From positions 3,312,208 through 3,376,207 of the forward strand of contig JAUJYN010000012.1 of NCBI GenBank assembly GCA_030737835.1: DNA of 64,000 nt, given 5' to 3'. Below, piece by piece: positions 4,592 through 62,532 of the stretch. Under the pieces are notes generated by a model. That model did no database searches, had not been told where the DNA came from, and worked only from the letters and a program-made list of their open reading frames with translations. The DNA comes from Acorus gramineus (Eukaryota; Streptophyta; Magnoliopsida; Acorales; Acoraceae). The position numbers were made by a program, and so were the translations under genes. Each line of letters begins with the position of its first letter. Within the stretch, counting starts at the first letter, position 1.

Positions 4592-7500
4592 TCAATTGTG
4601 TATCCTTTCAAAGAACAGTATGTATGCTTCAGCCTTGAGAACTTCGGCCAGTGAAACCTCGCGGACGTGAGAGTCACTCGCATAAAACCATGTCGAGCTC
4701 ACGCTGACAGTCTCGCCTTTCTTTTTTATTCTATCGCCCCTCACATATGCGACATAATGACCACCTCTCATCGTCCCTGAATGCTCCACAACACCCATAA
4801 GACGGTAAATACAACTGCCTTTCTCTTCGCCACTGCAAAACAAATGAAGGGAAGCTTTTGTTACTTGTATCCTCATGCATATAATATAAATATATATATA
4901 TATATATATTAGAGGTGATATAAAGAAAATCCAAGAGATGGTTTCAAATGTTATGACAAAAAAAATTCTATTCAGACGCGCATGTTATGTTGTGTAGAAG
5001 ATGTGTATTAGTGCATCATAAGAAGTAAAAACAATGAGGATCCTATAAGTGATAGATTCAATGCATATGATGATTTAAAGGTTTATGTTGATCATGTTCT
5101 GCATACGAGAAATTTCACCATAGCCTCAAGCATGTTAAAACTTCAAAACATGAACAACGAGTCGGATCAACAATGAATAAAATCAACATTACATGCAGAA
5201 CTCAAAAAGTTATTTATGCTGGAGAAACATATAGCCACATGCATGTTGGTATAGCTGGTCATTTTCATCTTCTTTCCTTCTGCCTTCCATAAGTTTTTCC
5301 CATTTTATGATAATAGATACGTTTATTGCATGAACTATTGATTGTTAATCTGGTTTCTTGACAAATTAGTTTGGTAACATGCACACCCAAAAAGCATTAT
5401 CTGTCTGACATCTCTTCTTCCATATTAAGCTTAAAGGATGTGTCCCACCCAAACTTTACAAATGTCGTGCTTGTATAGACGCTTCTAAACGAAACAATCA
5501 ATAAGTTACATATAAATCACAAAGGCTCTGGTTTTCAAAACTCTGAATACCAATTTTTGTAAAAACTAAAAATATCAAGTTTTTGCGGTATGTTTCAGTG
5601 ATTTAAATTACTGCTAAGATTATGTACCTAGTATGCATTCTTTTGCTTTGTGGATATTTATATCTCACAGACTCACACAAAAGAAGTTACAATTGAGAAT
5701 TTCTTGCTTCTATCCCCTTCCCATGCACATGCCACCCATACATATTAATATAATTGTGAATTCTACAATTTTGATTGAAATTTGGGAACCTGATAATTGA
5801 TATCTAGGTGAGACTGTCATAATGTTTTTTCTGCATCAATTACTCCTGCTTGAAGGGGCGGGAAGGTCTGGTGTCGGTGATTGATTTGCTGGAACTGGAA
5901 AGTGAAAAATATACTTCACAATCAAGTGGAGTTGGGCAACACTCAAAGCTGCTCCAGGGATTTGGGACATTTGATATTAAAATGCTCAACATACATTGAC
6001 ACAGAGAGAACCAATTGTTTTTTCATGCATTTAAGACACTTGTGAAAAAACATTATGCAAATGATAAAAATGATTCTTAGAAAATGATGGTAAGCATCAT
6101 CTCTCAGTGATGCGAAAACATAGGAAACCACTAAAATTTAAAAATATCAAGATTGATACGTGGAATATGAATGGATGTATCAAGAGCAAACTTATTCTTC
6201 ATGCACTTGAGAGTTGGAACCAAACATGGAGATGGGAAACATTTTTTTTGGATAGAGAAGCAGAGGGATTTGAACTCGGGATCTCATGGTTGCAAATATT
6301 GTTGTCAACGTTGAGTTATGGTTCAATGCACATAGGAACCATTTTTTGAAGTTTTAGATAGCATTTTATTCCAAAACACATGGTATATGAAGAAGAAATA
6401 AATGGATTAATGTGTTGTATTGAGTAATGGAGGCTGAAAGGCTCCTTATATAGTTACAAGATGTACAAACCCTAGAAACAGAAAAAGACCAAAATACCCA
6501 TGACAAACATACCCATGGGGGGCGTTGCCCCTCAACCCCCGGGCCTCTCGGAATAGGCCCAACAACAGGCCTATACAATAACTCCAATATATGATACTTG
6601 AGATCCAGATGGGATGAGAATCATGGATTGCAGATATTAAAGTAAACACTGTAATCTTTAATAAATCAAGGCAAAAGCCATAAACTGGTTCTGACTGGCT
6701 GTTGGGCTATTTGAATGCCAAGAAATGAGGTAGTGCTCGAGGAAAGTACCTCATAATTTGAAAATATTTGGAGAGCAAAGTCTGATTCATCAAAATTGGG
6801 CAGTTTTTTTTAGTAGGAGAGCAGTCAGTGCGCATGGAAAATGGCAGGTTCTGCATTGTGGAGTAATCCTGATTGTGGCAATGCTGATTTTTTGTCATTT
6901 TGGCAGATTTGGCTTTGTTACTCTTCAGGTTTTTTATTTGCTATTTTATTTGTTCTGCTGTTTATATTATGAGATGTAAGTTTTCTTTTCATCCTTTGTA
7001 TGGTCATGAGAGAGAGAGCGAGAGACCAGTGCAGCATAAAAAGAAATAAAACAGATGAGGCATGGATGAAATTTATTATTGGAAGAGTTCAGTAAATCTG
7101 TAATCCTAATTCCTATACAGTTACATCCATGTTAATTCCAGACTTTTTTTTCCAGTCAGTATACTAATTCCAGACTTACATTCAGAAATATGGTTGCACA
7201 TATTGGCTAGGTATTTTATATACTTACTGCGAATTACTAATATTTATCTAATAAAAGCAATAGCCAAACATTGATAACCTTGCTGTATTTCCTCTATAAC
7301 AGCACATTTGGAGAAAGGGGGGGAGGGGACAACATCAAGAAAACAATTTTTTTGGGAAGATCCCTCATGCAGTTTGTTGGTCAATATGGCATTTCAGAAA
7401 CTTCAAAAAAAATTCTCTGAAAGGAAGTGTCTGTGGAGAACACAAGTATCTCAACTACTTGCTTCTCAAGAGATGGGTGTGGGCATATCTTTAAAGCATA

Positions 7501-10500: not shown

Positions 10501-13500
10501 GTTTTGGTGTGCATGTGGGGTTCAAAATGGACCCAAATATATAGTGGAAACCCCCCAAAATAGCCCCCCCAAGAGTGGTGTGCATGAGAGTTTTTACTAG
10601 CCATTGGCGCCATGTGTGGCACACATGCGCAACACCAAGGTGCTGAGAGGCGCACATCCACATGTGTGGCTCCACGTACGAGTACGTGCGGCTGCACTTC
10701 GAATTATGCATTCAGTTATATACAGTAAAGTGTGATGTGACCCGCATCACATAAAAGAAACTATCACGTGGTTGGAGCTCGTTAGCTCGTTCTCATATGG
10801 GAGCTCGAAGAGCTTGAGTCTTCAAAGCAAAAATGTGTGGTCCATAGATGAGCCTAGTCAATGACCCAACCAACATCCCATGTGAATACCCAATAAAATT
10901 CATAGAATATTTGTTCACGCGGTTGAATGGGGAAATTCATATGATGCGTGACTTCGCTTGTGCCACACGTCTGATTATGAACATGCCATGTGGCGAGATC
11001 TTATGGTCTCCAAGAACCTTTAAATAGAACATGATCCCAAGCAGGAAGGTACGCAATCATTCTCTTTTGTCACTCGCTTTCTTGATTTCGAGTTTTCTTT
11101 ATTTGAAAGAGAGTGTGACCACTGACTCGATTGTGGGAGTTTCTTTGGCAGGCATCTCACAAGTGTATTAGAGAAAAGTCTTCTCTCATGACATCTCTGA
11201 CTTCTTATCCGGTGCTATGGTGATGTCATCGAACGAGGTTGTTCGCAATAAATCTTGATTGTGGAGTTTTGGGCTCTACAATTGGCGTCATCTCCGGGAA
11301 GTCGTTTGATTTCTCACAATCTTCTCCTGTTGACTCTTTCTGTTCAACATTTCCATTTGACCAGGTGTGGATGGTTGAGTAGATCAAAATCACTGTGCCA
11401 CAACCAATACCGAGGCATTCAGTCTCCCATTGCGGGTTGTGGGGACGAGATCTCTCGCAATGTCAGAGAATTATTTGCCCCTTCACCTACTTGATTCTCC
11501 ATGCATCTCTTCCGCAGAATTTCGTTCCTCCGAAATTTCTCTCATACAATATAGCACGTCTGATCTTGTCGACCACATTCATGCATTAACATGCAATGGT
11601 GTTGTTCAAACATCATGATATTCTCCTTTGTCAAATGTTCCCTTCCAGCCTTGATTGACCAACCTTTGGTTGGTTCAACGGGCGTTCCCCTAGTTTGATC
11701 GTTAGTTATCTCATAGCACGTTTTGTATAGTAGTTCATTTGCAGCAAAAAAACACTCGAAAGATCTTGGAGACTTGTTGTATATTCGCATGAACCCCTCA
11801 AAGTCAATCAGGGAGTACATCAATCGCTTCTAAGTTGTCCTATACAAAATAGAGGGTTGTGATGAGTCAGCTACAATCATGGCCTCCAAATCCGGACTTC
11901 CAAGGATTCCCAGCTCCAAAAGTCTCTCATCAAAAAACAAGCTGAGAACAATCTATGAGCTAATCATGAAGGATTTTATTATTATTTCTTATGAGATCAC
12001 TATCGGATGAAACTTAGATAAGCAAATTTAGTTCTCGGTAGAATGTAGAACAATAAATTAACACAACTGTTGAATTTGAGGATGTAACAATAATATATGT
12101 CAAAATCTTAGAGAACTTGTAATCCATGAGGAGACATTAAGAAGATTGGATGATTATAATGGTGTTGTAGTGTTGCTTTAATCTCTTCATTTTAACATAT
12201 TGATGGAGATCTCTCATCTCCTTTGTTCAGGGGGGGCATTACTTCTCAAAAAAAAAAAAAATGATACAAGATATTCGGGGAAAAGGAGGCAAGACTAGTT
12301 TGAATGAGTACCTTGGACACATGTAGGGTCTAAGATCAAGCAACTCCCGAAACATTACATGACCACTCAATTTATTCAAGCGTCGACCATCATTGCTGAA
12401 CCTCTTTAGATGTATTATCAAAACTGGTGGTGCTTTCTTGATCAGAACTCTTAGGGTTGCATCCCTCATCACCTTCACATGTTCCTTATCCCTTTCATCA
12501 TCAGATTCATGCACTCTGTGAGGCAATTTTGAAACCTTCTGTGGCACTTTCTGAGATTCAAGAGTGGTGTTTTTTGCTATTGGGACTGTTTCATCAGGAT
12601 CCGCAGAGCTTCCAGGAGCAACCACAACATGGGAGCTTGTCTTGTCCAGACTCGCAAAGCACAAGCTTTGTTGTTTATTACTCTCTGACTTGCTAGTATT
12701 TTTAACTATTGAATCGACTTCATTGTCAAGTTCATGTACATTGGATTCCAAAGTCGCTCTTTTATTCTCCAACCCACCAACATAACTGCTTGTTTCATGA
12801 TCGACTCCCTCCACACGTGAAGTCAAATTATCATTTCCCATGCCTCCATTGCCTAAGTCATTAAATTGGGTATCATCGTCATGCTCCTCATCGCCAATCT
12901 CACCCTCAGTGCAACAAGATTTTGGAACTTTTAACTGATCGCCTCTCTCAAGAGTGGGTATTTGCTGATACTGCAATCTCTTGGAGCAACTCTCGCAATG
13001 CCACTTCTGTTCTTCAGATAGAATCTCCATTTTTGTGAAAATCGCCAAGCAACTCTCAATTGACACTGGAGAATACATATTATCAACCTCCTCTTGCACG
13101 AACTCACAATGACTACTTCCAGCCGATAGACCTGTCTCCCTCTCCTCATTGGCTTCCATAGTTTCCACCTTCAATTCAGAAGTAGCATCCGGATCATTAA
13201 ACAAGTCTCCAAGGCCTTCATAGTCTTCTACTTCAGCTTGCTGACACACAGAAACTGCTGAACTACCTTCAATGCAGTCCTCAGTCAGCATGCTATCATT
13301 TCCCATCGAAACCTCAGATTGTTCACAGCCTATAACAGATGAGCACCCCTCAACGCGATCCTTGGTTGGCAAATCATCCAAAGCCACATTTTTTCTTATT
13401 GGGTCTTCCATTAATGAAACATCCATTGCCGAATTTCCCTCCTCACTACTCTCCTTCTGAATGATCTGCCTATTCTCCGAGCATTGGCTCACCGAAACAT

Positions 13501-14800
13501 CAACCTCATCCACACCGGCCCCCATTTGAACACTGCCAATCCAGTCCATCCACCAAAAGTCCTCATCTTTGACCTCTGGTAGCGCCATGGGAGCACCACC
13601 ATCCACCACACACGAAGAATCACCGCCCTCCGTTTGTGAATTCACGTCTTCCATTTTCACGAATGTAGAATCACTACCAGCCTTTCCCACACCAAAGGAG
13701 ACACCATTCACCCTCCCCCTCTGCCGATCCTTCTGCGCCCCCATCTTCGCCTTCTTCGACAATGCGACCACCACCGCTCTTTTAGGCAGAGTCTTCTTGC
13801 CAGGCATTGGCAATGAGAGGTCCAGAAATGGCTCCGAAACGGTCGACGAGTGCCCACACTCGAGGCACTGCACGGTGGTCAAGACCTCCCCACCGAAGAC
13901 CGAATCCACCCACGTCTTTGCCTCGGAACTCGCGCCCCTCGAGTTCCTCTCCTCGACGCCCAGACAATCAAGCAAGCACATCAGCAATTCATGGCTGTCC
14001 TGCTGTTGGAAACCTCTGAATTGCGGCGCCCTCGCGCAGACGCACCCGAAGACCCCGCCCGGTCTCAACGCACTGTTCGAATTGCCACGGCCCAAACCCG
14101 TCTCTTCGAAGAGCTTCTTCAGTGACGCCGTCAGATCCCCGACTGGGCGGTCCAAAGCCCCGAAGTGCCGGCGAAGCGCGTCGAGCGACAACACGTTCTG
14201 CACCACCGAATTGAAGAAGCACGTGTTGCCGAGGTTCGCGAGGCCCCTGACGACGCGACCCTTCGCGTCCCCGTCGACGACGTCCTCGACCGGGGCGGGA
14301 CCGAGAGGGGTCGGAGGGAGGGGGACCGTCGAGCCGCACTCGAAGCAGAAGCAGACGAGGCGGTCGTCGTCGACGTCGGACCGGACGGCGCAGGCGTGGC
14401 GGGCCTGCTTGGAGTGCCGCCGCGCGTGGCCGTGCGGGGGTCCCTCCGCGGCGGAGACACCGCCGCACGCGGCGTGGCCGCAGCTTGTGCAGACCCAGAT
14501 GAGCTTCGGCTGATGCAAGGCCACCGATTTCTTCTTCTTCCCGGCTTTGGTCTTCCCCTTGTGGGGTCTCCGGCCGGGGTCGTCGTCCGGGCAGTCGTCG
14601 CACCGGTCGAGGTCGGCTATTCGACGCGCGACGCGGACATACGCGTCTCCGGTGACGTAATGCGCGCACGACGCCACGGCGGCGTCGGTGGGGGCGGCGG
14701 CGGGGGTCGTCTGGGTTGGTGGGTCGGAGGGGGAAGGGACGGAGGGGGATTTGTGGGGCTTGCGAGGGTTGCGAGCTTTGGATTTGGTCTTCTTCGCCAT
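4592..14800 (-). CDS. Ubiquitin carboxyl-terminal hydrolase, UBP1/UBP2-like (USP family C19)
   Basis: A cysteine protease that removes ubiquitin from proteins. Two exons: 14800-12312 and 4832-4592 (donor CCAAG|gta, acceptor tgcag|TGG), giving 909 residues, close to plant UBP2. Residues about 45-155 form a ZnF-UBP domain ([18 protein letters not shown]). The Cys box is at about 187-204 ([19 protein letters not shown], nucleophile C194), then QQDSHE at 266-271 and a zinc-binding CLEC at 312-315. A long acidic variable insert separates this from a second CESC pair. Exon 2 carries the His box ([14 protein letters not shown]855) and ASDSHV (D883), so all catalytic parts are present. The ATG at 14798-14800 follows no other in-frame ATG. 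The 5' third is very GC-rich, unlike the AT-rich remainder. The 7,479-bp intron is full of transposons. Family call is firm; orthology to UBP1 versus UBP2 is not. Confidence 0.93.
6366..6600 (-). mobile_element. LTR-like fossil fragment, probably Copia type
   Basis: On the minus strand a TATA-like ACTATATAAGGAGCC is followed by CTTTCAGCCTCCATTAC, text typical of the promoter/leader part of plant Copia LTRs. No internal domain or partner LTR is visible. It lies in the intron of the ubiquitin protease gene. Confidence 0.35.
6601..8248. other. Intron DNA of the ubiquitin protease, no supported feature
   Basis: Intron sequence without recognisable coding exons. The short open frames here have no family resemblance. 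Two GCGGCCGC octamers (8221-8228 and 8242-8249) sit at its right end and resemble the ends of the inverted-repeat element at 30706-31047. Confidence 0.4.
8257..8792. mobile_element. hAT-type non-autonomous element (MITE), 536 bp, with 8-bp target duplication
   Basis: Terminal inverted repeats begin TAGGGGTGCAACT and continue with GGGCGGGTTG, matching at 23 of the first 24 positions. The flanking octamer CACTTGGG is present on both sides (8249-8256 and 8793-8800), the 8-bp duplication expected of hAT transposition. Subterminal DNA is dense in AACCCGACCC / GGGTTCGGGT motifs, plausible transposase binding repeats; the centre is AT-rich with no coding capacity. It sits in the intron of the minus-strand ubiquitin protease gene. 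Confidence 0.88.
9590..10330 (-). pseudogene. Degraded hAT transposase (BED-like zinc finger and DUF659-type N-terminal part)
   Basis: Minus-strand pieces in different frames read [13 protein letters not shown], then [28 protein letters not shown] (a BED-like CxxC finger, about 10232-10072), then [11 protein letters not shown], and [20 protein letters not shown] ... [12 protein letters not shown] (9591-9760). The last block is the conserved lead-in to DUF659 hAT transposases of plants. The frame is broken several times and the catalytic and dimerisation regions are missing, so it is dead. A TATA-like motif (rc of 10535-10544) about 200-300 bp upstream could be its old promoter. It may be related to, but is not contained in, the MITE at 8257-8792. 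Confidence 0.75.
10740..12010 (+). mobile_element. LTR-retrotransposon fossil: LTR end plus gag remnant (Ty3/Gypsy-like)
   Basis: An LTR-like stretch ends near 11278 and is followed by TTGGCGTCATCTCCGGGAAG, resembling the LTR/internal junction of plant Gypsy elements. Downstream (about 11740-12010) are gag-like words such as [13 protein letters not shown] and REYINRF. The element is broken and partial: no pol domains and no second LTR are seen. It lies in the ubiquitin protease intron, opposite in strand to the gene. Age looks old. Confidence 0.6.
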
Positions 14801-15130
14801 GGTTTCTTGTGTGGGTCGATTGAGTTTCGAAGGGTTTTTCGAGAGAGACTAAGTTGGGGAAATCGTGTTATTGGAGAAACACAGATTCGATTGTGTGGGT
14901 TTGGTGGGCGCGCACGTGTTGTTCGGGGAGAAGTGACTGAGAGAGAAGGAGGCGGCGGTCGTGGCGGCGGCGGCGGTGGCTGGGGGAAGGGGCGAAGAGA
15001 AGGAGTGGATGAAGGGCCCTTTTGTAATTGTTGGAAGGAGTGCTGCTGCTACGTGACTCATGACTCTTTTTTTTTTTTTTTTTTCAGTTCTGAATGAAAA
15101 ATTGAAGAGATGAGTGCCGATATAAGTTAT
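14801..15130 (-). promoter_or_regulatory. Upstream region of the ubiquitin protease gene
   Basis: A GC-rich leader (GGCGG/GCGGCGGCGG runs near 14950-14985) lies directly upstream of the ATG, then an A/T homopolymer at about 15067-15084. No clear TATA box is visible, as is common for housekeeping plant genes with GC-rich starts. The promoter role is inferred from position only. Confidence 0.4.
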
Positions 15131-18109: not shown

Positions 18110-19601
18110 TTATTCCAGGAAGTGCTGTCCATATCTATAGAACAAGTCGTCCATGATTCCTCATGATCCGAAATGTCCACTTATGATCGGTTCCATCACG
18201 GCTCTCATAGTCTTTGCAGCTTGTTGGCCTCTCATATCATCGTCGTCACGGTCGTTGACATCGCTCGCACCAGGTTCCCCTTCGATGGTCTCTAGGCGGT
18301 CAACCGCGAAGCTTCTTTCCATCTCTATCAGGTGCATCAACTCTTTCGGTGATGGAGAATAGAATGGGGCGTTCAAGGAATCGGCCTTCTCCTCCTCAAT
18401 GAGACTCTGTATAAGCATATATCATGACTAGATTAGTCATGTTTACATTATATATATATATATATGATGACCACACATAAGTATAGGAGAATGGTGTCCA
18501 CATCTTAACATTTCACTGCATATGTACTGTACCTCGTGGACCATGTCCATGAGTATGAGTGCATCTGCTAATAAGTTCCACTGAAAGCAGTACTCCTTAG
18601 ATGATTGGTCAGTGGATTTCCTTCCAATGAGCGTTAACACCATGCGACCACCGATAATGATTTTTCATTACCTTCAGAGCGCAACATTAGAAACTTTGAG
18701 AAATCCAACTGGAATTGCTTGAGACAGGAGTGTAACACGCGAGGTTGATATATAGAGATTCCCTTTGTTCAGATGCGCATTTGTTCCGCTATGGAGATCG
18801 AGCGGGACCTGTTTTAATTTAACAAAATTATATATGGCCTATTCATTTCTTGCAAATATTTGGAATATTTCATTCTTGTGATTATTTTTGAATAAAATTT
18901 TCTTTATTCCTCATTCTATAAGAAATAAATTTTACTGAAAGATGATCAATGTTAATGTTCTATCCCTGAATGATTTACCTGAGAAAGCCAATGAAGACTA
19001 GAAGAGGATACAACAAGATGTACTGTTTCTTGGGAAAAGCCTTTCATAGAAAGAGCCAGGCACGCCTGCGATGAAACACGGACCGAAATCGCTCCCCTTC
19101 TCCGCCTTGAGCTTCTCATAGAATGCGGGGAGTCCCTTGAAAACTGTGTTGAAGTCATTCCCGGGGAGGTCATTGAGAAAGCAATGGAATTCCGGTGAGG
19201 TACGCCCTAGCTGTCGACGTTTCTGATCGACGAAATCTATGATGTCATGGATCTGTTGCACTGCATTTGGTCCCGACGAGCAACCCAAGTCCGCGATGTT
19301 CAGCCCCTCAGGCAAGGTGGTGCTATAGAGATCCAATATGACTTCTTTGGTTACCTCACTTGCCTGTGATATGACTTTGTTCTGCACAGAAAGCATGCAA
19401 TATATATGTCATACAAATATTAATATGAACATGGCGCATGGGAAGGAAATATAAGATCTTGGAATTACATATACATGCAATATAGAGAGAGAATTTGTTT
19501 GAAGAGAGAGAGAGAGAGACCTGCATGATTGAGCTCCTAGCATAGCTGAAATCACCATTTCCTTCATTCATGTGGAGAACAGTTTGCACACCCATTGTCA
19601 T
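18110..19601 (-). pseudogene. SABATH-family carboxyl methyltransferase pseudogene
   Basis: SABATH enzymes move a methyl group from S-adenosylmethionine to carboxyl groups of small molecules such as salicylate, jasmonate or gibberellin. Four exons: 19601-19521 (MTMGVQTVLHMNEGNGDFSY), 19381-18979 (ADLGCSSGPNA SAM-binding motif, FLNDLPGNDFNTVF, LHWLSQ), 18808-18533 (LKQFQLDFSKFLMLRSE, GGRMVLTLIGRKS), 18406-18110 (FYSPSPKELMHLIE, MRAVMEPIISGHFG). Splice sites are intact. The frame changes near 19020-19026 and twice within exon 3 (about 18700 and 18650), and a TGA at 18161-18163 comes 16 codons before the family-like end IMDDLFYRYGQHFLE. Total length matches a normal SABATH protein of about 350-370 residues. 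Intron retention means a duplicated gene, not a retrocopy. Substrate cannot be inferred. Assembly errors could explain some breaks. Confidence 0.85.
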
Positions 19602-21672: not shown

Positions 21673-21957
21673 TTTAGTTTTCAGTCCCTGTAAACATACC
21701 TATTTAGGGATCGATCCCTCATTTCTTCCTATTTCGGTTTAAATCCCTAGATTTAAAGGATATGTTCTTTTTAGTCTCTCTCAGAGACTAAAAACAAAAT
21801 CAAATAATTTAGGGATAGGTCTCTCACAAAGACTAAAAAAGAACATATCCTTTAAATCTGGAAACTAAAACCAAAATATGAAGAATTGAGGGATCAATCA
21901 CTAAATCCTATGGTTTATGGAGACTTAAAAATAAAAATCCCATTATTTTTTTATCCC
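21666..21957. mobile_element. Foldback element inserted in the MITE copy A end
   Basis: Two arms of about 130 bp are inverted copies: AAAGGATATGTTCTTTTTAG near 21758 returns as its complement near 21838-21856, and outer words (CCTAGATTTAAAGG, GGGATCGATCCCTC) also match in inverse. The loop contains TCTCTCAGAGACTAAAAAC. No coding capacity; family unknown. Confidence 0.65.
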
Positions 21958-27700: not shown

Positions 27701-30700
27701 CCAGAATTACACTGTGACACCGAAAATGTATGTCCCCACTTAAGCACTCTGTGATCATTAATCTCCCTTAGTCAGTCCCATGGATTGGGCCGCAGCACAA
27801 TGTTTAGCCCAATCTTTAATAAAGCGGATGGTACTTACCCAAACATTCTGGAAGATAAGGAGGTGAGTCCTTGGACACCACCTATGTCTATATTGGATAT
27901 GGATAATCTTTTGTTATGCCATTTGTATTTGATCTGTTGGATGGATTGTGAATAATTTTTTTTCCCCTTCCACTCTTCCGGTGATATCTATTGAACACAC
28001 TACATTTGGAGATGTTGCTTTGATATGTTACTTCTTGTAAGATATATTTTATTTTATAGATGTTCAGGGGAAAAATCTTTTAGTCATATATTTTTTATTT
28101 TATATATCTTGTTTGTTTGTTGTTGATACTGTTTTTCTTGATGAGACTAGAAGACTTAAACCTTATCTTAATTGATTTGAAGAAATGTATCTGGAGTATT
28201 ATATGATCGTTATATATCCATGAAATCGAAAGAAAAATTCCATAAAAAAATAGCTATCTGGTCTGTATTGTTTTACTGGTCTGAGTTTTGGGAGATTAGG
28301 AGACAAGATGTTCTGATAATGAGTGTAGCTGAAACGATGATGTTAAATGGATGAATCGCAAGATAAGATAAGAAAAGACAAAATCATAAATGAGTTTAAT
28401 CAAGAAAAATTTGAAGTTTTTCTTATAGATGGTGAGACGAAGGAAAATAATTTAATATGGTTTGGATATGTGCAATGGAGACCAATTTGTGCACTGGTTA
28501 AGAGGAGTGATACGATCTCATTTTTTGAGAGAGAAGAGTAATGTTATAAATAAACCTTGAATAAATAAAAGGGAGACACAATATCTTCAATATGTTAAAA
28601 TCATACATGATCATTGTTGAAGGGATTCGGGTGACGACAATGATATCTTGGGATGACGTGGCCCTAAATAAAGTTGAATGGTGAAAAACGATTCTAATGA
28701 TCCCAAATTTTTTGGGACAAAGGCTTCATTATTTTTATACACTTGTACAGTCATATGATATACGTTTTTGTCATTTTTTTTGGGGAATGTGGCAGTTCTT
28801 GTGAGATTAATTCATAATTTTTCATCTAATGCCATTTGCAATGATCTTTAACCATTTTTTTCAGGTATCAATCAACTTTGTTGGGATCTTTCCAGACAGT
28901 GGAGCTGGTTGAAACCTTCTTGAATTATCAGGTGATGCTTTCTTTATTCGTAGAGTCATGCACACTGTGACGTCTCATTTCTTCTTTTCAGGATTTATTT
29001 CAAACTTGTTCTTTACTTGAACATAAGTTGATGTTAGAAAATGTAAACCTAGTATTTTATAAAAAGTTTTGTTTTTCTTAAATTTTTATAGAAGCTTAGC
29101 CTTGAAAAATGATTTACTATGGAAAAATAGTACAATATGAAGTGAAATGAAATATGTTTAATTTCGTATTTCATTGATTGAATTCCATATTTATTAGTTA
29201 TGACCTGTAGCTTGCTTGCTATATAAATGAGTGCCTCCTAGTCCCTCGGTGGTAACACATTTGGGGTTGTAAGATTTTATTGTGCACCTATTTGCAGTAT
29301 GTTCATATATTTCTGTTTAAAATATTATTGTGATTGTCTGCAAGTTTTGATGCACGTGTGCGCCCTTGTTTCACATATCAGATACACTGCATGACGTATG
29401 GATATTTTTTCAGTCTGTGTTCTTGATCTGTTGAAGGTTGCTAATCATGTCTACTTAATTTTGGAATTTAGGAGAACATAAGGCGGTGTGTTTGTATTAT
29501 ATATGATCCGTCAAGGTCCAATCAAGGAGTTTTAGCTCTGAAGGCCCTGAAGCTCTCAAATTCTTTTATGGATCTTTACCGAACCAATAATTTCACCGGA
29601 GAGAAGTATGCAATCATTTTTCTTATACTATAATTTATGATTCTGCCTTTTTGTGAATTTTAATGTTATGCCTTATGGATAGGTTGCGGGAGAAAAATCT
29701 ATCTTGGGTGGACATCTTTGAGGAGATACCTGTATGTCCATCCTTCTCTCTCATACACTTTGTTTGGGTTAATCTTATCGGGGCATTATGATCAATGAGT
29801 GTTATATGAATTAGAATGAATGGGGTTCCTTGTCAATGTCCTTTTGATGCATTTTTACCCATGGTGCTATATTTCACATTCCTCTCTTCTCCGCAGATTA
29901 AAGTTTCCAATTCTGCACTCATTAGTGCATTTATGAGTGAGCTGGAAGCCGACACCCCTGTTACTCAGGTTCTTGTTCATCAATATCCAACTGTATTCTC
30001 CAAATCTTGTTGTTTCAACATCAGTTCTTACAAGCCATTTTCTCTTTTCCAGTGTGACTATGATAGGCTACAATTATCAACTAACCCATTTTTGGAGAGG
30101 AATGTAGAATTTTTGATTGAATGCATGGATGATCTCGCAGTGGAACAACAAAAGGTTATAGCAATATTCCTTAAGTGTTCTCTAATTATCATGGATGTCA
30201 TCATTCGTAATCCATTTTCGGAGCTTGCTTATATTTGTTTGTCTCTTTACCACAGTTCCAATTTTATTACCGAAACCTTTCACGTCAGCAAACCCAGCAG
30301 CAGACATGGCTTCAACAACGAAGGTACATTGTTTGCATAAATGATAATCGCACATTCATGCTTATTGTTGACCTTCAATTTGCATTTGGGGTTTTTTTTA
30401 TGCATTGATGGTTATTTTTGAAATTAAATATATGCCCATTATTAACTATGAGAAACACATATGTTGAGTACATGAACAGCCCATGCGTGTTTCCATAATC
30501 ACCTGTACAAGTTAGTGAGAATCTTTGTTAAGTAATTGATTGACCTTGTGCCCTTGTTCATTCACATTTATATGAGGCTATGTTTGAGGGGTGGACCAGT
30601 ATCACCTCTTTTGTAGTATCATCTCTTTCCGAAGGGAGTGGGGTTTATATTTTATAAAGCATAGTTTAAAAAACATCCCTATATGTGGTGGGGTTTGCAT

Positions 30701-33700
30701 ACAGTACATGCGGCCGCACATGTAGCAGCACATTGTATATTTTATTTTAATTTTTTAATTCGAACAAAATTCAAAAGCCTAAGGACCGTTTGAATCCCGT
30801 TCGAACTGGGTTCAAATGCGTAAGGGTTGTTTGAATCCCGTTCAAATTGAGTTCGAACCGTTTGAATTCCGTTCGTCTAAAGACCATTTGAATTATGTTC
30901 GAACTGGGTTCGAATGCCTGAAGGGCTGTTTGATTTCCCGTTCGAACTGGATTCGAACGCCTAATGGTTGACCGCACATGGCTAGCACTTGGGCAGCACC
31001 AGGGTGCTGATGTGCGCCGAGGGGGGTAATGTGCGGCCGCACTTTGAACTATGTTATAAAGTCTTATTCGTTGTCACTGTTATGGAGGGAGGATTGGGAA
31101 ATTATCATGAGGCATTGTGAAAGGAGAGCAGAAGTAATGTAGGGTGTATTTTGATATTTTCTTATAGATATCTGGTCTCTCCTTGATGTTTTGGGAGGTG
31201 GTCTTTGTACATTTCCTATTTTTGGAGCAATTTTTAGTAAGATTCAGGTGGTGAGTTCCTATCTTTTTTTGAAAAAGAAAACAGTTCATTCAACACTGCA
31301 ATCTGTTCCATTCTTGATGGTGGAAGCTTTGCTTGAAGACTCATCTCTGCATTTTTAGTGTCTATTTCCTGCTGCAGCTTGCCTTGCTGTGACAAAATCT
31401 CAGCAGAATCTTAAGAAGTTTTTTTTCGTAATCATTATAATTTCTCCATTCACTTCTACAGTTGTTTTTGATGGAATTATCAGATTAATGTACAATATTT
31501 TTGCAAGTCTGCTAGCTTATGTTTATCCAGAGTTTCTTCCATTTTGGCTTATTGATTTCCACTACCAAGTTGGTAATAAGAAGAAAGACGGAAAAAGAAC
31601 ATTGCAGTCTGCAAACTAATAATTAAAAGCAACTTGGTGGGCATCAACATTCCTCTTGAGGATTACCTCCTTGCATCATGATTGTGTTGCAATGCCTCGA
31701 GGTTCTCTAACAAATATCCTTGGCTCCTCCTTCACACTAGTTGCCTTCAAACGAGGGATTCAATTCCATTACTTTGAAGATTCAAGAAGAAGTTCAAAGG
31801 TTGGAAAGGTAGGTTATTAAGCTTGGGTGGCTGTTTTGTGCTACTTAAAGTGGTCTTCACAGGTCCCCCTCTTTACTTCTTGATTTGCAAGGTCCCATTT
31901 GGCACTCTTGAGAAAATGGAGAAATTTTGTTTGAAAGAAAAGGTAGGTGATATCTTATTCATAGAAAGCAACAAAAGGAGAGATTAGATGAAGATTCTTA
32001 TGGAATGGCACCATGGAGTGTGAAAATGGTTCTCATCTAGCAAAATGGGATCTCAGTTGTCCAGTAAAAAAGGATGTGGTATGGGGGTTCTCAACCTTTG
32101 CATTATGCAGAAAGCTTCGTTTGGGAAATGGCTATGGAGACTAATTGTCGATCCTGATTCCTCTTGGATTAGAGCCATAGGTGAGAAATAGTATGGGGGA
32201 AGGGGCTGCGCTCTAGGCTCTCTTTGATTCTCCAACCAAGAGTGACTCGCTCTAAGGTTTGGAAGAACATTCTTGACTTGGTTGCTAGGATTAAAGAGGA
32301 GATCCATTACCTATTAGGAAATGGGGTGGAAACCAGATTTTTTTTTTGTAATTATAGAAAAATATAGGTGAATCTTATTTTAAGAAACCCCTGATAAAGA
32401 AGAGATGAAGGTTCTCCTTACAACATAAAAGAGAAGAAAGAAATGCAAAGATTAAGCCAAGCTAAATAAAGCTATCCTCTCCCCCAATGGTCGCCCATAA
32501 TGGATCCAAGCGAAGGCTCCTCCAAAATAAATTTTATCCAATCCATAAGCATAGATGAGATCGTGGCCGAAGTATTTTCCAAATACACTCTTTTGTGTTG
32601 AAAGACTCCCTTGTTGTGGAAACTAGATTTTGGAATGACGCTCAGTTTAATGGTGTTTCTCCGGCCTTTTCCGGGTGGCATATGATGAGAATGACCTCAT
32701 TTGTAATTCCTTCACTTGCAGTGATGACAACATCATTTGGATCCTTCGCTTGTGTTGTAGCCTTAATGATGTAGAGGCGGAGGAATTGACCTTTCTTGTG
32801 GCTCTCGAAGGAGTGGAATTGAATATGGAAGAGGACTTTGTGGCTTGGAAGCTATCTCCTCGATCCAGCTTCTTCTTGAGGATCTCTATAGGAAGCTCAA
32901 TAAAAACCCCTCTCAATGCTTCCCAACAAATCTGTTCGAATTCCTTATTTGGGAAACTAGTCGGCACAAAAGATTTTATGCTTTATGTGGTTTCTCACGC
33001 TCAACAATGTGCTTCCAAGGTTATTAGGATAAAATGGGTACACGATGATAATGTCATTCGTGAGCTTTACAAGTTAGAAGAGGAAACAAGTGACCATTTT
33101 TTCTTTGGGTGCTCTTTTAATATGAAGACTTGGGAAAAGGTGGGCATGACTCCTCATTTCCAATTTCCATTGCTCTTTTAACAAACTTGAAGGAATGTGT
33201 CGATGGTTCTAGAAGAGGTGTAAAAGTGGTGATTTAGTTACGTTGTTAAATTCTAGTGTCTGGTCTTGTAATTAAGCATTAATAATTAGAGAATTAGCAA
33301 TAATAAACTCATCATCTTACATCATACATGTGTAATTAAGCATTGCCTAGGCTGCTAGGCGCATGGCCACTGCCTAGGCTCGCCTGGCTCCCTAGACAAC
33401 TATGATTTCTTGTCACATATGACATACACACACGATGATCATGGTAATGACTGTTTGATATTCGACTGCATATTGATACATTAAAATTACTGCCAGTGCG
33501 CTGGTATCCGACCAGCTTTATTGACCATTTTCTAACATAGCACCATATTTAGAGCAGTTGAATTAGTAGAATTTTGAACTGAGTTGAACTATATTGTTGT
33601 TTTCTGCTTTTTTATTTGAATCTTTGTTTTAGTAGAAGCATGATATATATCATGGCAGATTTTTTTCTATTCCGCTTTCTTACTCTTTTCTTCTCTAATT

Positions 33701-36022: not shown

Positions 36023-36028
<6 letters not shown>

Positions 36029-38701
36029 GAAGTAGTAAGGCAAATCAAGCACATAGAGCAAAAAATAAGCCCAAACAACCCCAGATATCCCCCCAAAGAA
36101 AAACCCCCCAGAAAACTGTCCCGACCCCTCCGCCGTCTGAAGCCTATCCTTCACCTTCTCCCGTCCCGTCAGCGTCAGCCCGGGCGCCGTCAACGGCTCC
36201 CCTTCCTTAAACGACGCGATCCCGTACATCATCAAACAAACGCTCAGTATCACCACCAGCCCCGCCACCGCAAGTGACCCGGCGGATGTGGCGTATTCGG
36301 TGTTCCTGAGTGGGCCGGTTTTGACGAATGGGCAGGCCCACCTCGATGCCGTGGAGGAGTGGGCCGACGGCGGTGCGGTAGGCAGGGAGGTTGGAGAGGT
36401 ACCAGGCAATGAGGTTGGATCATCTGGTACGTCGGCTGCTTGAAAGAAAAGGGTGTTGTTACATTCCGTTTTTTTTTTTTTTTTTTTAAATACAGTCTTA
36501 TAATATAACGTGTTAGAAATCTAGTTCTTTACCTTGTTAATTTTTTTCACACACTTAGTAAAAATGAGTTCGTTCAAATTGAAATGATATAATATACACT
36601 TTTTTTTTTATTTATCAAAACATATATCTCGTTGGAAGGTAAAAATGATGGAGTATGACATTTTTCTAAAAACAAATAGCATTAATACATTCGTCTAGTT
36701 TGCATCCCGTTTTGCAATATTATATATTATGATAGAATGATATATATACTACACTATCATAATATATAAGGTTCCTATCATGATGTATTGACCAATTTTT
36801 TCTTCTCATTTTTATAAAGTGAAGATAATATAATATTGTATCTTATTATATATTTTATTTCATATAATAACATGTATATTTTTAAAAAAACAAAAGAAAA
36901 ACGTTGTGGGCTGCAAATGAGGTTCGATATGTCATTTTCCTAAAAAAGAAAAAGAAAAATGTTACATACAATCTATTTGACAATCTCATGACACATGTTT
37001 TTATTTTTTTTAAAATCATATATCTCATTTTTATAAAAGGTGATATATATATTCTAATGACTTGAATGATATGATTTATGAAAAATGTGAAAAAATTTCA
37101 ACAGAATATATATATCATTACAGTGAATGAAAAGACTGTATAACGAGATATATATGACTGCATTTGAGATTATAAAAAGGACCGAGTGTAACATAGCTAA
37201 AAAAGGGAAAAATGTTAAGTAGAGTCCATTTTACGTACAAAACACAAACCGCATATGTTTCCATTTTTTCTAAACACTTTTTACATCATTTAACGGGGTA
37301 TATACTTTTATAAAAGTGATATATATACTATAATAATAGAATGATATTAGAAATATAATTTTTTTTTATTGAGATATATATCTCGATACAGTGAGTGGAA
37401 GGGGCTGACAAGGTACATGAGACTCTTAAGATTGTAAAAGGGATGGAGTGTAATTGAGCTAAAAGTTAAAAATAAGATATCTTTATATGTAATACACGAC
37501 TAGTGTTTTATAAACCTGACCTGATCCTGCTAGTTGAACTTTTACCCGTCCCGAATTCAAGTTCGGTTTACCTTTAAAATCTAATAGTATATAAAAAGGT
37601 AAAAACTAATCAATCTTCTAGTAAATGTATTAAAATTAAATCATGAATCACGTGAAGTTAAAGCTTTAAAAGTTTTAAAATTTTCTAAAATATTCATATT
37701 TTTTTTATAAACTCGTTTATCCAATTTTAATAATTAACATGTTTATCATGTTATGATAATTTTATTGTTCAAATCTAGTTAATTGAATGGTTGAATAAGT
37801 GACTCTTAATCCATTCTAAAAGTCAGCCATTGAGCCACTAGTCCAAAACTTGCTTATCAAATTTTTAGTCATTCTCCGTCATGTTTAGTACAATTGCTCC
37901 AAATTTTATCCTATTATGCGTTTGGTTATGCTATTACATAACTTTTGTGTTTGCATGAAGCTGCTTCTACAATTGTGGAACTAAATAGTTTTACTATAAC
38001 AGCTTCCTATAGATAGATTTTAGGTAAATAGTGTTTAAAAACTGCCATTTTCAAAAGCTGAAGGAGATGAGCTTTCTGTAGAATCAGTTTTAAAATTCAG
38101 ATTGCTGCAAAATAACTTCTGCAGTCGCGCAACCAAAAACACCCTAAGTGATCAAATTCTACTGTCAGTATTGATATAGGGCCACTGATGTAATGTCCCT
38201 GAGATGCAATGTTGAAGCATGGCAAATGTAATGTCTCTGAGATGCCGTTTCTTTCAATATAGTTCTTGTTTTCAAGCATACACAGTTTCATTATGTTTTC
38301 CTCATTATAACATCTACATTATCAGGGATAGGATCTAGTCAGAGCTAGATCACATCACTTGTAGTCAGTATATATATCAAGTAAAAGACTGATCGTGATT
38401 AACATGATACAATTATCATAAGTAGATCTTTCATTGAAAATTGATCACGATCATGTCCTGCCTGGATCCTATCTCTTACTAAATGCATGGAAAGATCAAC
38501 ATGCAAGACACAAAAAGTGCATGAAAACACACTCACCTTCTCTGCTTGGATGGCTCTGATGGTGAAGACAGGCCTTCTGTTGGAGTGCAAGACCCTAAGT
38601 GGGGCTCCTGAGATGCCTCTTGGTGTGACAAGGCCTCTGCTGAGGGAAGAGGGGATGTTCCTCTTTAATTAGCTTGCCATTGGAGCTGTGGCTGTTGCCA
38701 T
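36023..38701 (-). pseudogene. psaL: psaL pseudogene (photosystem I subunit XI)
   Basis: PsaL is a nuclear-encoded, plastid-targeted membrane subunit of photosystem I that docks LHCII and, in cyanobacteria, joins trimers. Exon 1 (38701-38537) begins MATATAPMAS, then an in-frame TAA at codon 11 where PsaL has Q, and continues as a normal transit peptide ending FTIRAIQAEK. Exon 2 (36435-36023) reads PTYQMIQP, then lacks about 17-19 codons (the GDPFIG...TP stretch) before [21 protein letters not shown] second small deletion after GIEVGL removes the AHGFFLVG part and shifts frame. The rest is intact: [54 protein letters not shown], ending [10 protein letters not shown]. The intron and its splice sites survive, so it is a decayed duplicate gene rather than a retrocopy. 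A functional psaL must lie elsewhere. Confidence 0.88.
37915..38145. mobile_element. Possible small MITE in the psaL pseudogene intron
   Basis: The left end GCGTTTGGTTATGC and the complement of the right end (AGGGTGTTTTTGGTTGCGC) look like inverted repeats around AT-rich DNA with AACAGCTTCCTA / GAAGCTGCTTC motifs. No target duplication identified. The rest of the intron shows only AT-rich DNA with repeated ATATATCTCG words. Confidence 0.35.
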
Positions 38702-40851: not shown

Positions 40852-41234
40852 GGGAAAATTTCATATTACCCCATATAATCTTCCTGATATCCATATAACC
40901 TCCTGTAATATCAATATATCCAGATAACCCCCTATAAACACATCATAAATACAAATAATCCCATGTGGCTAAAAATTCTTTAACAAAGTTAAAATATTCT
41001 GAGCATTTTTTGTTATCTGAACAATGATTAACAGGGTTAAAAGAATACATATTTGTAATCATAATTTAGGTAACGGAATATGTTCAAAATATTCTAACTT
41101 TGTTAAAGAATTTTTAACTGCGAGGGGTTATTTGCATTTATGGTGTGTTTATAGGGTGTTATATAGATTTATTGAGATTACACGGGATTATATGGATATC
41201 GGTAATATTACAGGGGGTTATATGGATTTTTCCC
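40852..41234. mobile_element. Foldback MULE-type MITE, copy A (383 bp, 9-bp target duplication)
   Basis: The whole element is a near-palindrome: arms of about 180 bp, starting GGGAAAATTTCATATTACCC on the left and, inverted, GGGAAAAATCCATATAACCC from the right. The 9-mer TTTTATAAA flanks it on both sides (40843-40851 and 41235-41243), as expected for Mutator-like transposition. Inner arms share AAAAATTCTTTAACAAAGTT. No coding capacity. Copies B (51701) and C (52575) are in this window. Confidence 0.88.
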
Positions 41235-55845: not shown

Positions 55846-56777
55846 TACTGTTGCCGTCAATTGTGAAATAGTGACCACTGTTTTTGTTCTCTCTCTCTAT
55901 CTCTCACTCACTTTATAAGCAACTTCAATGGTTCTTTGGAAATCGGAGGCTTTGTTTTTCTTTTATTTATTTTTTTAATGTTGATTTCAGATTTTTTTTT
56001 TCATTGTTTTTTCGGTGACGTGAAGAACGATTCAGATCTTTTGGTGTTGGTTTTGGTTTCCGATTTGAAACTTGTTAGATCTTGAATCGTTGTTATGGTT
56101 TCTTTTGCTTTAATCAGATCTCTCTCTCTCTTTCTCTATCGATTTCTATTTCTATGTATTGATTCACAGACACACAGCAATTCACAGAGGTTTCAGAAGA
56201 TCAGTTCATGAGAAAGGAAGAGAAGGTGATGATATCATGTGATTTGCTTTCTTTTTTATTTTATTTTATTTTATTTGGGTTTGGATCTCGAATTGCGGAG
56301 TGAAAAATATGAGTTTCGATTTAGGGGGTCTAGCGTTTTTTTTCAGATCGATTTCATTATCATTGACTCCTTTATTTGATGTTGTTTTTGGGACTGCAAA
56401 GCTATTTTGACGTCTGATTAGAATCACTTGTGTTCCAAGCGTTCTATTCGTTAGAGTTTTTACACAGATCGATTTCATTGTTAGTTTTGTTGTTGTTTTT
56501 GGGACTGAAAAGCTATTTTGACGTCTGATTAGCATGAGATCTGATTACAATAACTTGTGTTCCAAGTGTTGTATGCGTTAGGGTTTCCCAATTTTTTTTT
56601 TTATTTTAGGCCTTGATTCTCTATATTTTGCTCCGCTAATGTTTGTGAGTTTGTTTCCATGCTTTCTTGCAGGATCTCCAACAATGATTTGTGTGGTAAA
56701 CCCAGCTTTGGTTAGTTGACCAGTACCTTCTCTCTCTGTGAAGGAGGTCAGAGTACCAAATCCAATGGAGCACCAAT
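55846..56777 (+). promoter_or_regulatory. Probable promoter and 5' part of the MIR535 primary transcript
   Basis: A CT-rich tract (TTCTCTCTCTCTATCTCTCA at about 55886) and TTTATAAG (about 55912-55919) could be core promoter elements, with transcription starting near 55945. The segment to the hairpin is non-coding. It contains a direct repeat (56344-56590). Start site and introns cannot be fixed from sequence. Confidence 0.4.
56344..56590. repeat. Direct repeat of about 120-130 bp upstream of MIR535
   Basis: CAGATCGATTTCATT, TTGTTTTTGGGACTG, AAGCTATTTTGACGTCTGAT and ACTTGTGTTCCAAG each occur twice in the same order, with units starting near 56344 and 56465. The second unit has a short extra segment (CATGAGATCTGATTACAATA). 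It probably lies within the primary transcript. Confidence 0.85.
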
Positions 56778-56902
56778 CTTTGTGTGAGAAGGGAGTGGTT
56801 TGACAATGAGAGAGAGCACGCCGGTCTGCATTCATGATAGATTGAAATGACTGTATACGAGCGTGCTCTCTCTCGTTGTCATTCGTTTGGTCTCACACAA
56901 AG
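56778..56902 (+). ncRNA. MIR535: miR535 precursor hairpin
   Basis: The 5' arm 56801-56821 (TGACAATGAGAGAGAGCACG plus C) is miR535 with one change from the common form as I recall it (T instead of C at position 7). The 3' arm 56861-56881 (GCGTGCTCTCTCTCGTTGTC plus A) pairs with all 21 positions, using one U-G wobble at position 7. The loop is 39 bases. The stem continues below the duplex, with CTTTGTGTGAGA (56778-56789) exactly complementary to TCTCACACAAAG (56891-56902). miR535 belongs to the miR156/529/535 superfamily and guides cleavage of SPL transcription factor mRNAs. It is absent from Arabidopsis but present in many other land plants. The opposite strand also folds, but the plus-strand reading matches the family. 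Confidence 0.9.
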
Positions 56903-57800
56903 CCTTCTCTTCTCCTCCACTAACATCCAGTCAACATCATTTATAGGTATATCTACTTCTGTTTTGCCCTTTTGACTGCTGTTTCTGTTTTTAGGAATAT
57001 GTGTTTTGTGCTTATTTTTTTGTATAGCCTTTTTGTAAAGCATTCCCAAAAAGTAATATCTCTCTTATATTTAAGTTTCCATGATATCTGGGTTGGTTTT
57101 CTTGTGTTGCATTGGGTGTATGTTGTTGTACTTTGTTTATCATTTCATTTTTTTTTGAAGACCAATTGAATTTAGGATTCTGAATGATGGTGAAGCTAAT
57201 GTATGGGTTTTCACACACATATACATACATATGTACATAGAAATACATTTGTGTGTGTGTGTGTGTATGTGTGTTAGAGATTTTCTTCTTAATACATAGG
57301 TCAGTGGAATTGTTAGTGCTGCTTGAATGTTATCTACAAGTTGTATACCTGTGAGATATATTTGCTGCATTGAATCCATATATTCATAAGTCATCCATAT
57401 TTTATGTGTAGTTAGTATTGGTTAAATATGAAATAGAAAATGACATCATTCTAACAGAATTGCATCTTCCAAAGTCAGTGCTTTTATCAGTGTAGGAGGA
57501 GCATGTGAAATCCTGGAAGCCAGAATTTATTCCAATTTTTTTCTTTCATTCCACATCACTCATGTTCAAAATCCCTCTTCATCTCCTCCGCAATTTGAGT
57601 CATCTATAATCAGACCTCTAGTGTCTATTTCCAGGTCACCATTTGAAGTCTTGGTGCTATAGTTACTCTAGTATTTATGCATATCCAGATTTCATTGTGC
57701 ATATCATGTCAAATTATGTATCTTCTCCTGTGCATTGAATTTACTTTGATAAAATGGACTTACACCCATTGAAGCTTATTTTTTCCATCTTACTAATCAA
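56903..57800. other. Downstream flank of MIR535, no gene seen
   Basis: Probably includes the 3' part of the primary transcript. A GT microsatellite lies at 57251-57272 and an imperfect ACATATACATACATATG tract near 57217. No exon or RNA family recognised. Confidence 0.45.
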
Positions 57801-58290
57801 TCCTTTATGGAAGATTTATTTCTCTTTTATCATCTCTTTGATTAAATTTTGATGGTTGAGATTTATTTTAAACACAAAAAATTATGGAAGATTTGTTTCA
57901 ATTTATCAAAGAGATAATAAAGAGAAACAAATCTTCCATGATTTTCTCTTCTCTCAAACTCATATTTTTTTTAAAAAAATAGAAATCTTCTATGATAAAG
58001 ATAATCAAATTTTCTATGATTTTCTCTACTCTCAAACTGAATATATATGTTAAAAAAAAAGAAGAAATTTCAGCCATCAAAATTTTACCAAGGTGATAAA
58101 GAGAAACAAATCTTCCATAATTTTCTCTTTTCTCAACCGAAGCAATATACGTTAAAAAAAAATCTCAAATATTAAAATTTAATAAAAAAAATCTTTTATA
58201 ATTTTCTTTCTCTCTCGTTAAAAAAAATCTCGGCTATTAAACTTTAATAAAATAAAAATAAAAGAGAAATGAATCTTCCTCAAAGGGAGG
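57800..58290. repeat. AT-rich inverted and direct repeat cluster
   Basis: TTTATGGAAGATTTATTTCT (57807) returns inverted near 58096-58123 (AGAGAAACAAATCTTCCATA). The AAATCTTCCAT(G/A)ATTTTCTC unit occurs several times between 57925 and 58215 with intervening CTCTCAAAC and TTAAAAAAAA. Looks like a decayed foldback element with internal duplication. Short open frames here are by-products. Confidence 0.65.
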
Positions 58291-59650: not shown

Positions 59651-62532
59651 GTCCTAAATTGTTCAGCTGAGTACAACCTTCATCACACTAATTCTTAAGT
59701 CCTTAGAAGCTGATGCTGTGGAAAAGTTTCGGCCGATCTCCCTATGCAACTCAATCTACAAAGGGATCACCAAAATCATTTCAAACAGGCTACAGTCCAC
59801 TCTTCAAAGAATTATCAGTCTTAATCAAACTGCTTTCATTAAGAAGAGGAGAATCAGACATAATATTTTATTGGCCCATGAATTGCTCCGATTTCTCCAT
59901 CTCCCAACTACTCATGGAAGGGCTTGTATTAAGATAGACATAAAAAAAGCTTTTGATGGTCTGCGTTGGCCATTTCTCTACATTGTCCTCAGGGGTCTGG
60001 GCTTTGATGAGAAGTTTATCACATTAGTCCAGCAGTGTGTGGAGTCTCCAAGGTTCTCAGTGCTTGTCAATGGAAGCCCCTGTGGTTTCTTCAGTTCTAA
60101 TTGTGGCCTTAGGTAGGGGGATCCTCTGTCCCCTCTTCTCTTCGTGATCGCTCTCAAAGGGTTCTCTCAAAGAATGAAGGCAGCATCGCTCTCCAAAGAC
60201 ATTGGTCCCTTTCTCAAAGGAGATACTCAAGTAAACCATCTTGCTTTTGCTAATGACTTGTTGATCTTTATAGATTCCTCCCCTACAACAGCAAGAAACC
60301 TTATCAATTTGCTAGATGACTTTGCAAGAGACTCAGGGTTGCAAGTCAATCTATCAAAAAGCCAAGTGTTCATCAATCCAAATGATCCATATAGAAGTGG
60401 TTTTATTGACACACTCAAAATTCTTGAAGGTTCCATCCCAGTCCGCTACTTGGGCCTCCCAATGATGAATGTTTCTCTCAAACATGCTCATTGCCAGCCC
60501 CTCATCGAAAAAATGCGAAAAAAACTCCTATCGTGGCAATCCCTCTTGCTCTCTTCAGCCGGTAGATTGGAGCTAGCTCGCACTGTGTTGAATGGCCTTC
60601 ATCTTTACTAGACATGCGCATATTCTCTCCCCAAGCGCACCATAAAAGAAGTGGAAAAAATGATAAGGGACTTCCTATGGAGGGACTCCCCACAAAAATG
60701 TGCCCCCCACCATGTCAATTGGACTACAATTTGCCAGCCCTTAAATGAAGGGGGACTTGGTATTAAATGGATTGTAGATTGGAACTTAGTTACTGCCGGA
60801 GTTCACCTATGGGATGTAGTTTCTAACATGGAGAGCTTATGAGTTAAATGGATCCATAGCAGGTACTTAAAATCTCACTCTATATGGGATGTTAAGGTAA
60901 GAACCACAAGTACAGCTGTCTGGAGGAAAATACTTGCAACTAGAGAGTGGGTAAAGCGAAAAGCAAAGTACATCATTTACAATGGAGAAGCTATAAACAT
61001 CTGCCATGATCCATGGATTGATGGTGAAGGATTGTCCAACCACTTTGGTTCCAGACTAGCCTTGTTGTTTGGGTTGAACAAGAACTCTAAAGTAAGTTGG
61101 TTGATGGCCACCTGAACGCTCATCCCTCTGGATCACAACTTATGAGATTGAAATTGGTGGTAGAGGCACTGATGAACTGACCTAGGGTCCAAGCAAGTTT
61201 GGCACACTTACTCTGGCAGAAGCGTGGAAGGAAGTGAAGAAAAAATCAGGCCACCCGTCCTAGAAGGAATGGGTTTGGCAAAAAACTCAAGTCCCGAAAC
61301 ATTCCTTCACAGTTTGGTTGGCATGCCATGACAAGCTCCCAACTCAGGCAAGACTCTTCCAAAAAAACTTGGTGGATAGCCCAATCTGGGTACTCTATAA
61401 CTCGGACATTGAAACAAGCCAACATTTGTTCTTCCAATGTCCCTTCTCTGGTGCTATTTGGCAATTGGTTCTTTCAAAAGCAGGTATATCAAACCATCAA
61501 ACCTCTCATATTCTGAGTGAAATTAGGTGGTTGGATTCTACTTACAAAGAGGAGGTCCCAAAGCTTATCCTACAGAACCTGCTTAGTTCCACCATTTGGC
61601 ATGCTTGGTTGGAAAGGAATCGAAGAATTTTCAAAGGGAAGCTAAAGCATCAAGACTCAATTGTCACACTTGCATTGCGAGACACTAAGCTGAAACTAAG
61701 CCAATACTCCTTCAAGACTGAAATGTCCCTTGATCTAGATCGATTGAAATAGGGTTGGGGATCAACAACTATGCTCTCTCTCTACACTCTTCAGAGGTGA
61801 CGTGGGAATTGTCTCCACGGGAATGGGTCAAAGCTAACACAGGCGGTTCCTTATCGGAGGATAGAGTAGGTTATGGTTTCCTCCTAAGGGACCACTCAGG
61901 AAATCTGATTTCGGCAGAGGCTGCAAAGACAACAGGGAAGTCTATCAATCACCTAGAACTATTGGTAGTCGGGCAAAGCATTAAAATGACGTTGGAGCTT
62001 GGTTTTCAAAACCTTTGGGTGGAGAGTGATTCTAAAGTTGCTTTACTTTGGATCACTTCTTGCAGCAAGGTTCCATGGAAAGTGCGACGGCTGGTCAATG
62101 CTATCAAAGAGGACTGCATTTCCTTCTTAGGGATCAAATTCTCCCACATCCATAGAGAGGGAAATAGCCTGGCAGACCTTCTAGCTAGCACTCAGAGTCA
62201 ACTGGGGGTCTCTCGCTATAGCCCTTCCTAAGTTTGGCTAGCACTGAAGAACCTCCTAGACAGAGATTGCAGTGGTATCCCGTATATTTGTCAAAAGCTT
62301 CGTTACTCTTCTCATTTTTGTTAATTTTTGGATTCTTTTGGTGTAACTTGGTGAGCTAAGAAGGGATGAGGTGGATGCACAGTCCCAGTTCACTGGGTCT
62401 GATCCCTCGCCACACCTATTTCTCAGTTCACTTTGGTTAATTTATATTAGCAATGTAACCCCTGAATCTTTTTGTACATTTGCTAAATATTACGATGAAA
62501 TACAATTTTGGACTTACCAACAAAAAAAAAAA
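59651..62532 (+). mobile_element. 5'-truncated L1-type LINE with 14-bp target duplication
   Basis: The polyprotein begins mid reverse transcriptase: FRPISLCNSIYKGITKIISN, ACIKIDIKKAFDGLRWPFLY, then GDPLSPLLFVIALKGFSQRM and HLAFANDLLIFIDSS, where the catalytic FADD reads FAND. A zf-RVT region (about 61318-61600: HDKLPTQARLF, SQHLFFQCPFSGAIW) and a C-terminal RNase H domain (about 61800-62200: VKANTGGSLSEDRVGYGFLL, LWVESDSKVALLW, HIHREGNSLADLLAS) follow. Stops break the frame (for example TAG at 60114-60116, directly before GDPLS) and the frame shifts after about 61110. The end has a poly(A) of 13 (62522-62534). The endonuclease and ORF1 are lost by truncation. Not capable of autonomous movement. 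Confidence 0.92.

Follow-up and report, generated by a model that had tools for sequence, protein, structure and literature searches.

An intact MIR535 hairpin with U at guide position 7 in Acorus gramineus

The window analysed here, a 64-kb stretch of Acorus gramineus DNA, carries on its plus strand a MIR535 foldback that runs from lower-stem base to lower-stem base at 56778-56902, recognised from its fold, its list of paired positions and its match to the Rfam model RF00714. Around this foldback, 20 open frames taken from those listed for the window (14 of the 19 in one listing and 6 of the 40 in another) were scanned against Pfam, and ten of them gave a match at E<=0.001, two of these lying below the Pfam cut-off. 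The minus strand carries pieces of ubiquitin hydrolase (4592-4984 and 12239-14848), of a carboxyl methyltransferase (18998-19408) and of PsaL (36023-36520), while the plus strand carries weak matches to eIF3h_C and zf-RVT (29810-30340 and 32651-33181) and, in successive open frames at 59658-62231, the reverse-transcriptase pieces RVT_1, zf-RVT and RVT_3. The latter stretch lies some 2.8 kb away from the hairpin and resembles a degenerate retrotransposon of the LINE type, and the Pfam content of the window suggests plant nuclear DNA.

The hairpin is seen directly in the minimum-energy fold of 56776-56905, in which the guide arm (56801-56821, TGACAATGAGAGAGAGCACGC) is paired at 21 of 21 positions, 20 of them by Watson-Crick pairs and the seventh by a U-G wobble (U56807-G56875); the opposite arm, at 56861-56881, is GCGTGCTCTCTCTCGTTGTCA. 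Full-length pairing of two 21-nt arms with a single U-G wobble at guide position 7 had been read from the letters in the original prediction, and the fold confirms it. The lower stem that was described there as perfect over 12 bp is likewise so, as its 5' side (56778-56789) and its 3' side (56891-56902) form Watson-Crick pairs at 12 of 12 positions in the same fold. Between the lower stem and the duplex lies a weaker stretch, 56790-56800, about which the original prediction was silent, with six pairs, four of them G-U wobbles. The predicted mature guide (56801-56821, one mismatch to canonical miR535, U7 at 56807) would be released together with a passenger, GUGCUCUCUCUCGUUGUCAUU, whose predicted ends at 56863-56883 leave 2-nt 3' overhangs and place G56875 opposite U7. 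The upper stem and terminal loop occupy 56822-56860 and, in both the Rfam alignment and the fold, contain GCATTCATG as in the family consensus.

Plant miRNA hairpins are in general short foldbacks with few mismatches in the duplex and no large bulge. Here the foldback measures 125 nt, and the 19 duplex positions comprise 18 Watson-Crick pairs, one wobble and no mismatch. Folding of 56740-56920, which had been suggested as a check of the original prediction, gave one hairpin on the plus strand at -79.6 kcal/mol, compared with a mean of -49.25 kcal/mol (sd 4.45) for 200 dinucleotide shuffles, none of which folded as well (z -6.82). The arms alone are not distinctive in this DNA, since near-perfect 21-nt arm pairs (no mismatch, one wobble or none, starts within 200 nt of each other, arms built from just one or two different letters excluded) occur at four separate sites in the window; what sets the hairpin apart from the others is its RF00714 match, together with the confinement of the canonical 21-mer to its arms. 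Inverted repeats at 21747-21861 and 40970-41116, whose closely spaced arms pair at 21 or more positions, gave no Rfam match at E<=0.1.

RF00714 (MIR535) matched the plus strand at 56792-56888 with 82.4 bits against a cut-off of 64 (E 7e-16), and the covariance model was covered whole, from position 1 to position 95 of 95, which bears out the assignment to MIR535 made before any database search. At curated cut-offs, the Rfam scan of the window returned two matches, both to MIR535 at the 56778-56902 locus, one on each strand; no second MIR535 was found in the window at the Rfam cut-off or at E<=0.1. A search of the window for the canonical miR535 21-mer with up to three mismatches also returned two matches, both on the hairpin arms, and none in each of 100 shuffles. 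The 21-mer of the plus-strand 5' arm differs from the canonical UGACAACGAGAGAGAGCACGC by one mismatch, at position 7. We conclude that the locus is a well-formed and apparently intact MIR535 gene, bearing a type of position-7 variant that has already been published elsewhere.

Other identities were considered and rejected. A chance hairpin is excluded by the fold z-score, by the Rfam E-value and by the shuffles, which held no match to the 21-mer. MIR156 (RF00073) scored 37.8 bits on the plus strand and 34.8 bits on the minus strand, below its cut-off of 62, and the weak window matches to mir-3149, mir-1277, MIR841, mir-5014 and Plant_SRP each fell under their own cut-offs. A miR535-like 19-mer had one match in the searched genome contigs, in a bacterial contig (L001, 2993-3011), where one frame reads, to our eye, ADNEREHAKW, reminiscent of a rubrerythrin; the match is regarded as a coincidence. 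In the viral contigs searched, none of the A7, C7 and T7 versions of the 21-mer had a match.

Among 34 papers matching the position-7 variant strings, C7 is the prevailing form of miR535: all 34 print the C7 21-mer, two of them an A7 form as well and none the U7 string of the window, in agreement with the statement in the original prediction that C is usual at this position. The canonical C7 sequence is printed for moss (PMC1838911), for grape MIR535A-E (PMC2831844) and for oil palm (PMC8912876), and 20 of its 21 letters are shared with the window guide, the exception being C7. The exact U7 21-mer of the window was not found in the open-access literature searched, outside which most subscription papers lie, and neither were the first 19 letters of the window passenger. 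Rarity of the U7 state as such is not supported, however, since such forms are in print from citrus, Murraya, rose, strawberry and ice plant. The form UGACAAUGAGAGAGAGCACAC is given for trifoliate orange (PMC3429500), for citrus roots (PMC5292693) and, as csi-miR535, for sweet orange on trifoliate rootstock (PMC8121382); these citrus forms are identical to the window guide at positions 1-19, but have A at position 20 where the window has G. For Murraya, a 19-letter print of the same form is tabulated with 422 reads, as we interpret the columns, and the A7, C7 and other forms given with it are rare (PMC8747174). A further U7 form, UGACGAUGAGAGAGAGCACGC, is given for rose as rhy-miRC9 (PMC3655976), for strawberry as mdm-miR535d_1ss7CT, with table values of 30,627 and 27,761 (PMC3747199), and for ice plant (PMC4977306), and papers on Rosa cultivars and on pokeweed appear to contain a matching string. 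The strawberry form has U7 like the window, and its name itself records the C-to-T change at position 7; both it and rhy-miRC9 have G at position 5, unlike the window guide. The string GAGAGAGAGCAC is absent from the main text of a longan paper that mentions miR535a.

Published passengers allow the opposite letter to be compared as well. The passenger published for trifoliate orange carries an A across from U7, a compensated state, together with mismatches at positions 9 and 10 (PMC3429500); the window passenger has G. In ice plant, the guide of mcr-miR3, TGACGATGAGAGAGAGCACGC, has U7 with G opposite it in the published passenger, GTGCTCTCTCTTGTCGTCATA, as in the window, although its guide reads G rather than A at position 5 and its duplex contains a further wobble at position 8 (PMC4977306). 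The values published for this U7-over-G arrangement are 65.4 and 50.4 reads per million, and mcr-miR3 was listed as novel by its authors (PMC4977306); differing from canonical miR535 at positions 5 and 7 only, it is probably a miR535 member, to judge by its printed letters. Both the uncompensated (U-G) and the compensated (U-A) states of position 7 are already in print, and the Acorus locus adds a clean example to the published occurrences of C, U or A at this position, which is mostly a point of annotation.

The original prediction had placed a C-to-U change on the guide alone. This stands as the simplest reading of the history, with the direction of the change presumed, because C7 is the widespread form and because the U-G wobble keeps the pair.

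Taken together, the locus is very likely a normal plus-strand plant MIR535 gene with a tolerated C-to-U change in its guide. A plus-strand transcript would fold at 56778-56902, and the 21-nt duplex would be excised by a Dicer-like enzyme (DCL1). The 5' arm, UGACAAUGAGAGAGAGCACGC, would then be loaded into Argonaute and would direct the cleavage of SPL-type mRNAs, in line with reports on miR535 from other plants. U7 would represent a single C-to-U change on the guide arm, and we infer that it is tolerated because the duplex keeps a U-G wobble and because position 7 is predicted to be unpaired on a published SPL site.

Target pairing was predicted for each guide on this SPL site, GUGCUCUCUCUCUUCUGUCA (PMC3727082), with 500 random-flank sets per guide. 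Guide position 7 was predicted unpaired in 500 of 500 sets with C7 and equally in 500 of 500 with U7, at mean energies of -29.63 and -29.93 kcal/mol, respectively, so that the C-to-U change should leave recognition of this site unchanged. The comparison of T and C at position 7 had been proposed with the original prediction, together with the suggestion that target choice could shift through the seed; with only 0.3 kcal/mol between the two letters, the suggestion finds no support at the published SPL site, where under the pairing model no shift should be expected from U7. By comparison, an A7 guide was paired at position 7 in all 500 sets, with a mean of -33.03 kcal/mol, about 3 kcal/mol better than C7 or U7, and position 7 is therefore not irrelevant in general, an effect that we count against the normal-gene reading. 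The mean for miR156 on the same site was -33.79 kcal/mol. No miR156-type SPL site was found in the 64-kb window at up to three mismatches.

Regulation of SPL genes by miR535 has been reported in other plants. In banana, cleavage of two SPL genes was confirmed by 5'-RACE (PMC6329063), and SPL repression by miR535 is cited in a rice paper, in which one of seven predicted SPL targets (OsSPL19) fell consistently as miR535 rose under stress (PMC7601473); this low proportion also counts against the normal-gene reading, as do the non-SPL targets named in papers on U7 forms. The latter favour a different account, in which U7 altered the target set, either by leaving SPL regulation or by gaining new targets through the changed seed. 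The targets in question are a rhomboid-like protein for csi-miR535 (PMC8121382), HMGR1 for the strawberry form (PMC3747199) and ITR3 for mcr-miR3 of ice plant (PMC4977306). However, the citrus and ice-plant targets were proposed from prediction and expression correlation only, the degradome evidence for strawberry gives a weak signal (score 4, category 2, p ~0.07, with the columns as interpreted here), and position 7 was unpaired on GUGCUCUCUCUCUUCUGUCA with either letter at nearly the same energy, so that we consider an altered target set very unlikely.

A decaying or unexpressed copy, with a guide that is beginning to drift, is likewise very unlikely, since the whole 95-position RF00714 model is matched, the guide and the lower stem are paired throughout (21 of 21 and 12 of 12 positions), and the single change keeps a pair.

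The normal-gene reading also depends on the plus strand being the one transcribed, and here the minus strand offers some evidence of its own. As the arms are near-perfect complements, the reverse complement of the passenger arm, at 56861-56881 on the minus strand, is an exact string match to the canonical C7 miR535 21-mer. The minus strand scores 67.8 bits with RF00714, above the cut-off of 64, and its fold beats the shuffles (z -5.07, with 0 of 200 as good). Both the Rfam match and the fold are counted against the normal-gene reading, and with the exact 21-mer they would suit a minus-strand gene making canonical C7 miR535, in which the U would be seen only as an A on the passenger side. A TATA-like pattern also lies at 56945 on the minus strand, 43 bases ahead of the hairpin in that direction, but it means little, as the pattern matches the minus strand six times in 2.6 kb. 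Moreover, the minus score is 14.6 bits under that of the plus strand, and the minus loop fits the MIR535 family less well, whereas the plus loop has GCATTCATG as in the consensus. The plus strand folds better in four of four stretches, by about 9 to 11 kcal/mol (for example, -68.1 vs -56.9 kcal/mol), and position 7 of the minus duplex would be a C-A mismatch, where the plus duplex has its U-G wobble. On these grounds we read the plus strand as the gene, and regard a minus-strand gene as highly improbable.

It is just as improbable that both strands are used, the plus strand yielding the U7 form and the minus strand the exact C7 form, although the near-perfect complementarity of the arms is what would let one locus give two miR535 variants. 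Should this prove to be the case, a single hairpin would supply two forms of the same miRNA, a finding that would merit publication. Caution is needed with small-RNA reads, as canonical C7 reads from any other locus would map perfectly to 56861-56881 on the minus strand and could be wrongly credited to this hairpin.

Upstream of the hairpin on the plus strand, a TATA-like motif, CTTTATAAG, at 55911-55919 may mark the promoter of the primary transcript, and a motif resembling a 3' splice site lies at 56665-56673, although neither strand yielded a splice donor pattern to match it; these TATA-like and splice-like motifs are pattern matches that carry no chance estimate. Just 5' of the hairpin, imperfect direct repeats of 28-52 nt, spaced 111-127 nt apart, occupy 56331-56586 and perhaps represent a duplicated intron piece. 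On the other side, at 57818-58286, direct and inverted repeats that overlap one another, with a similarity of about 74-90%, are clustered in what is possibly a small nested transposon.
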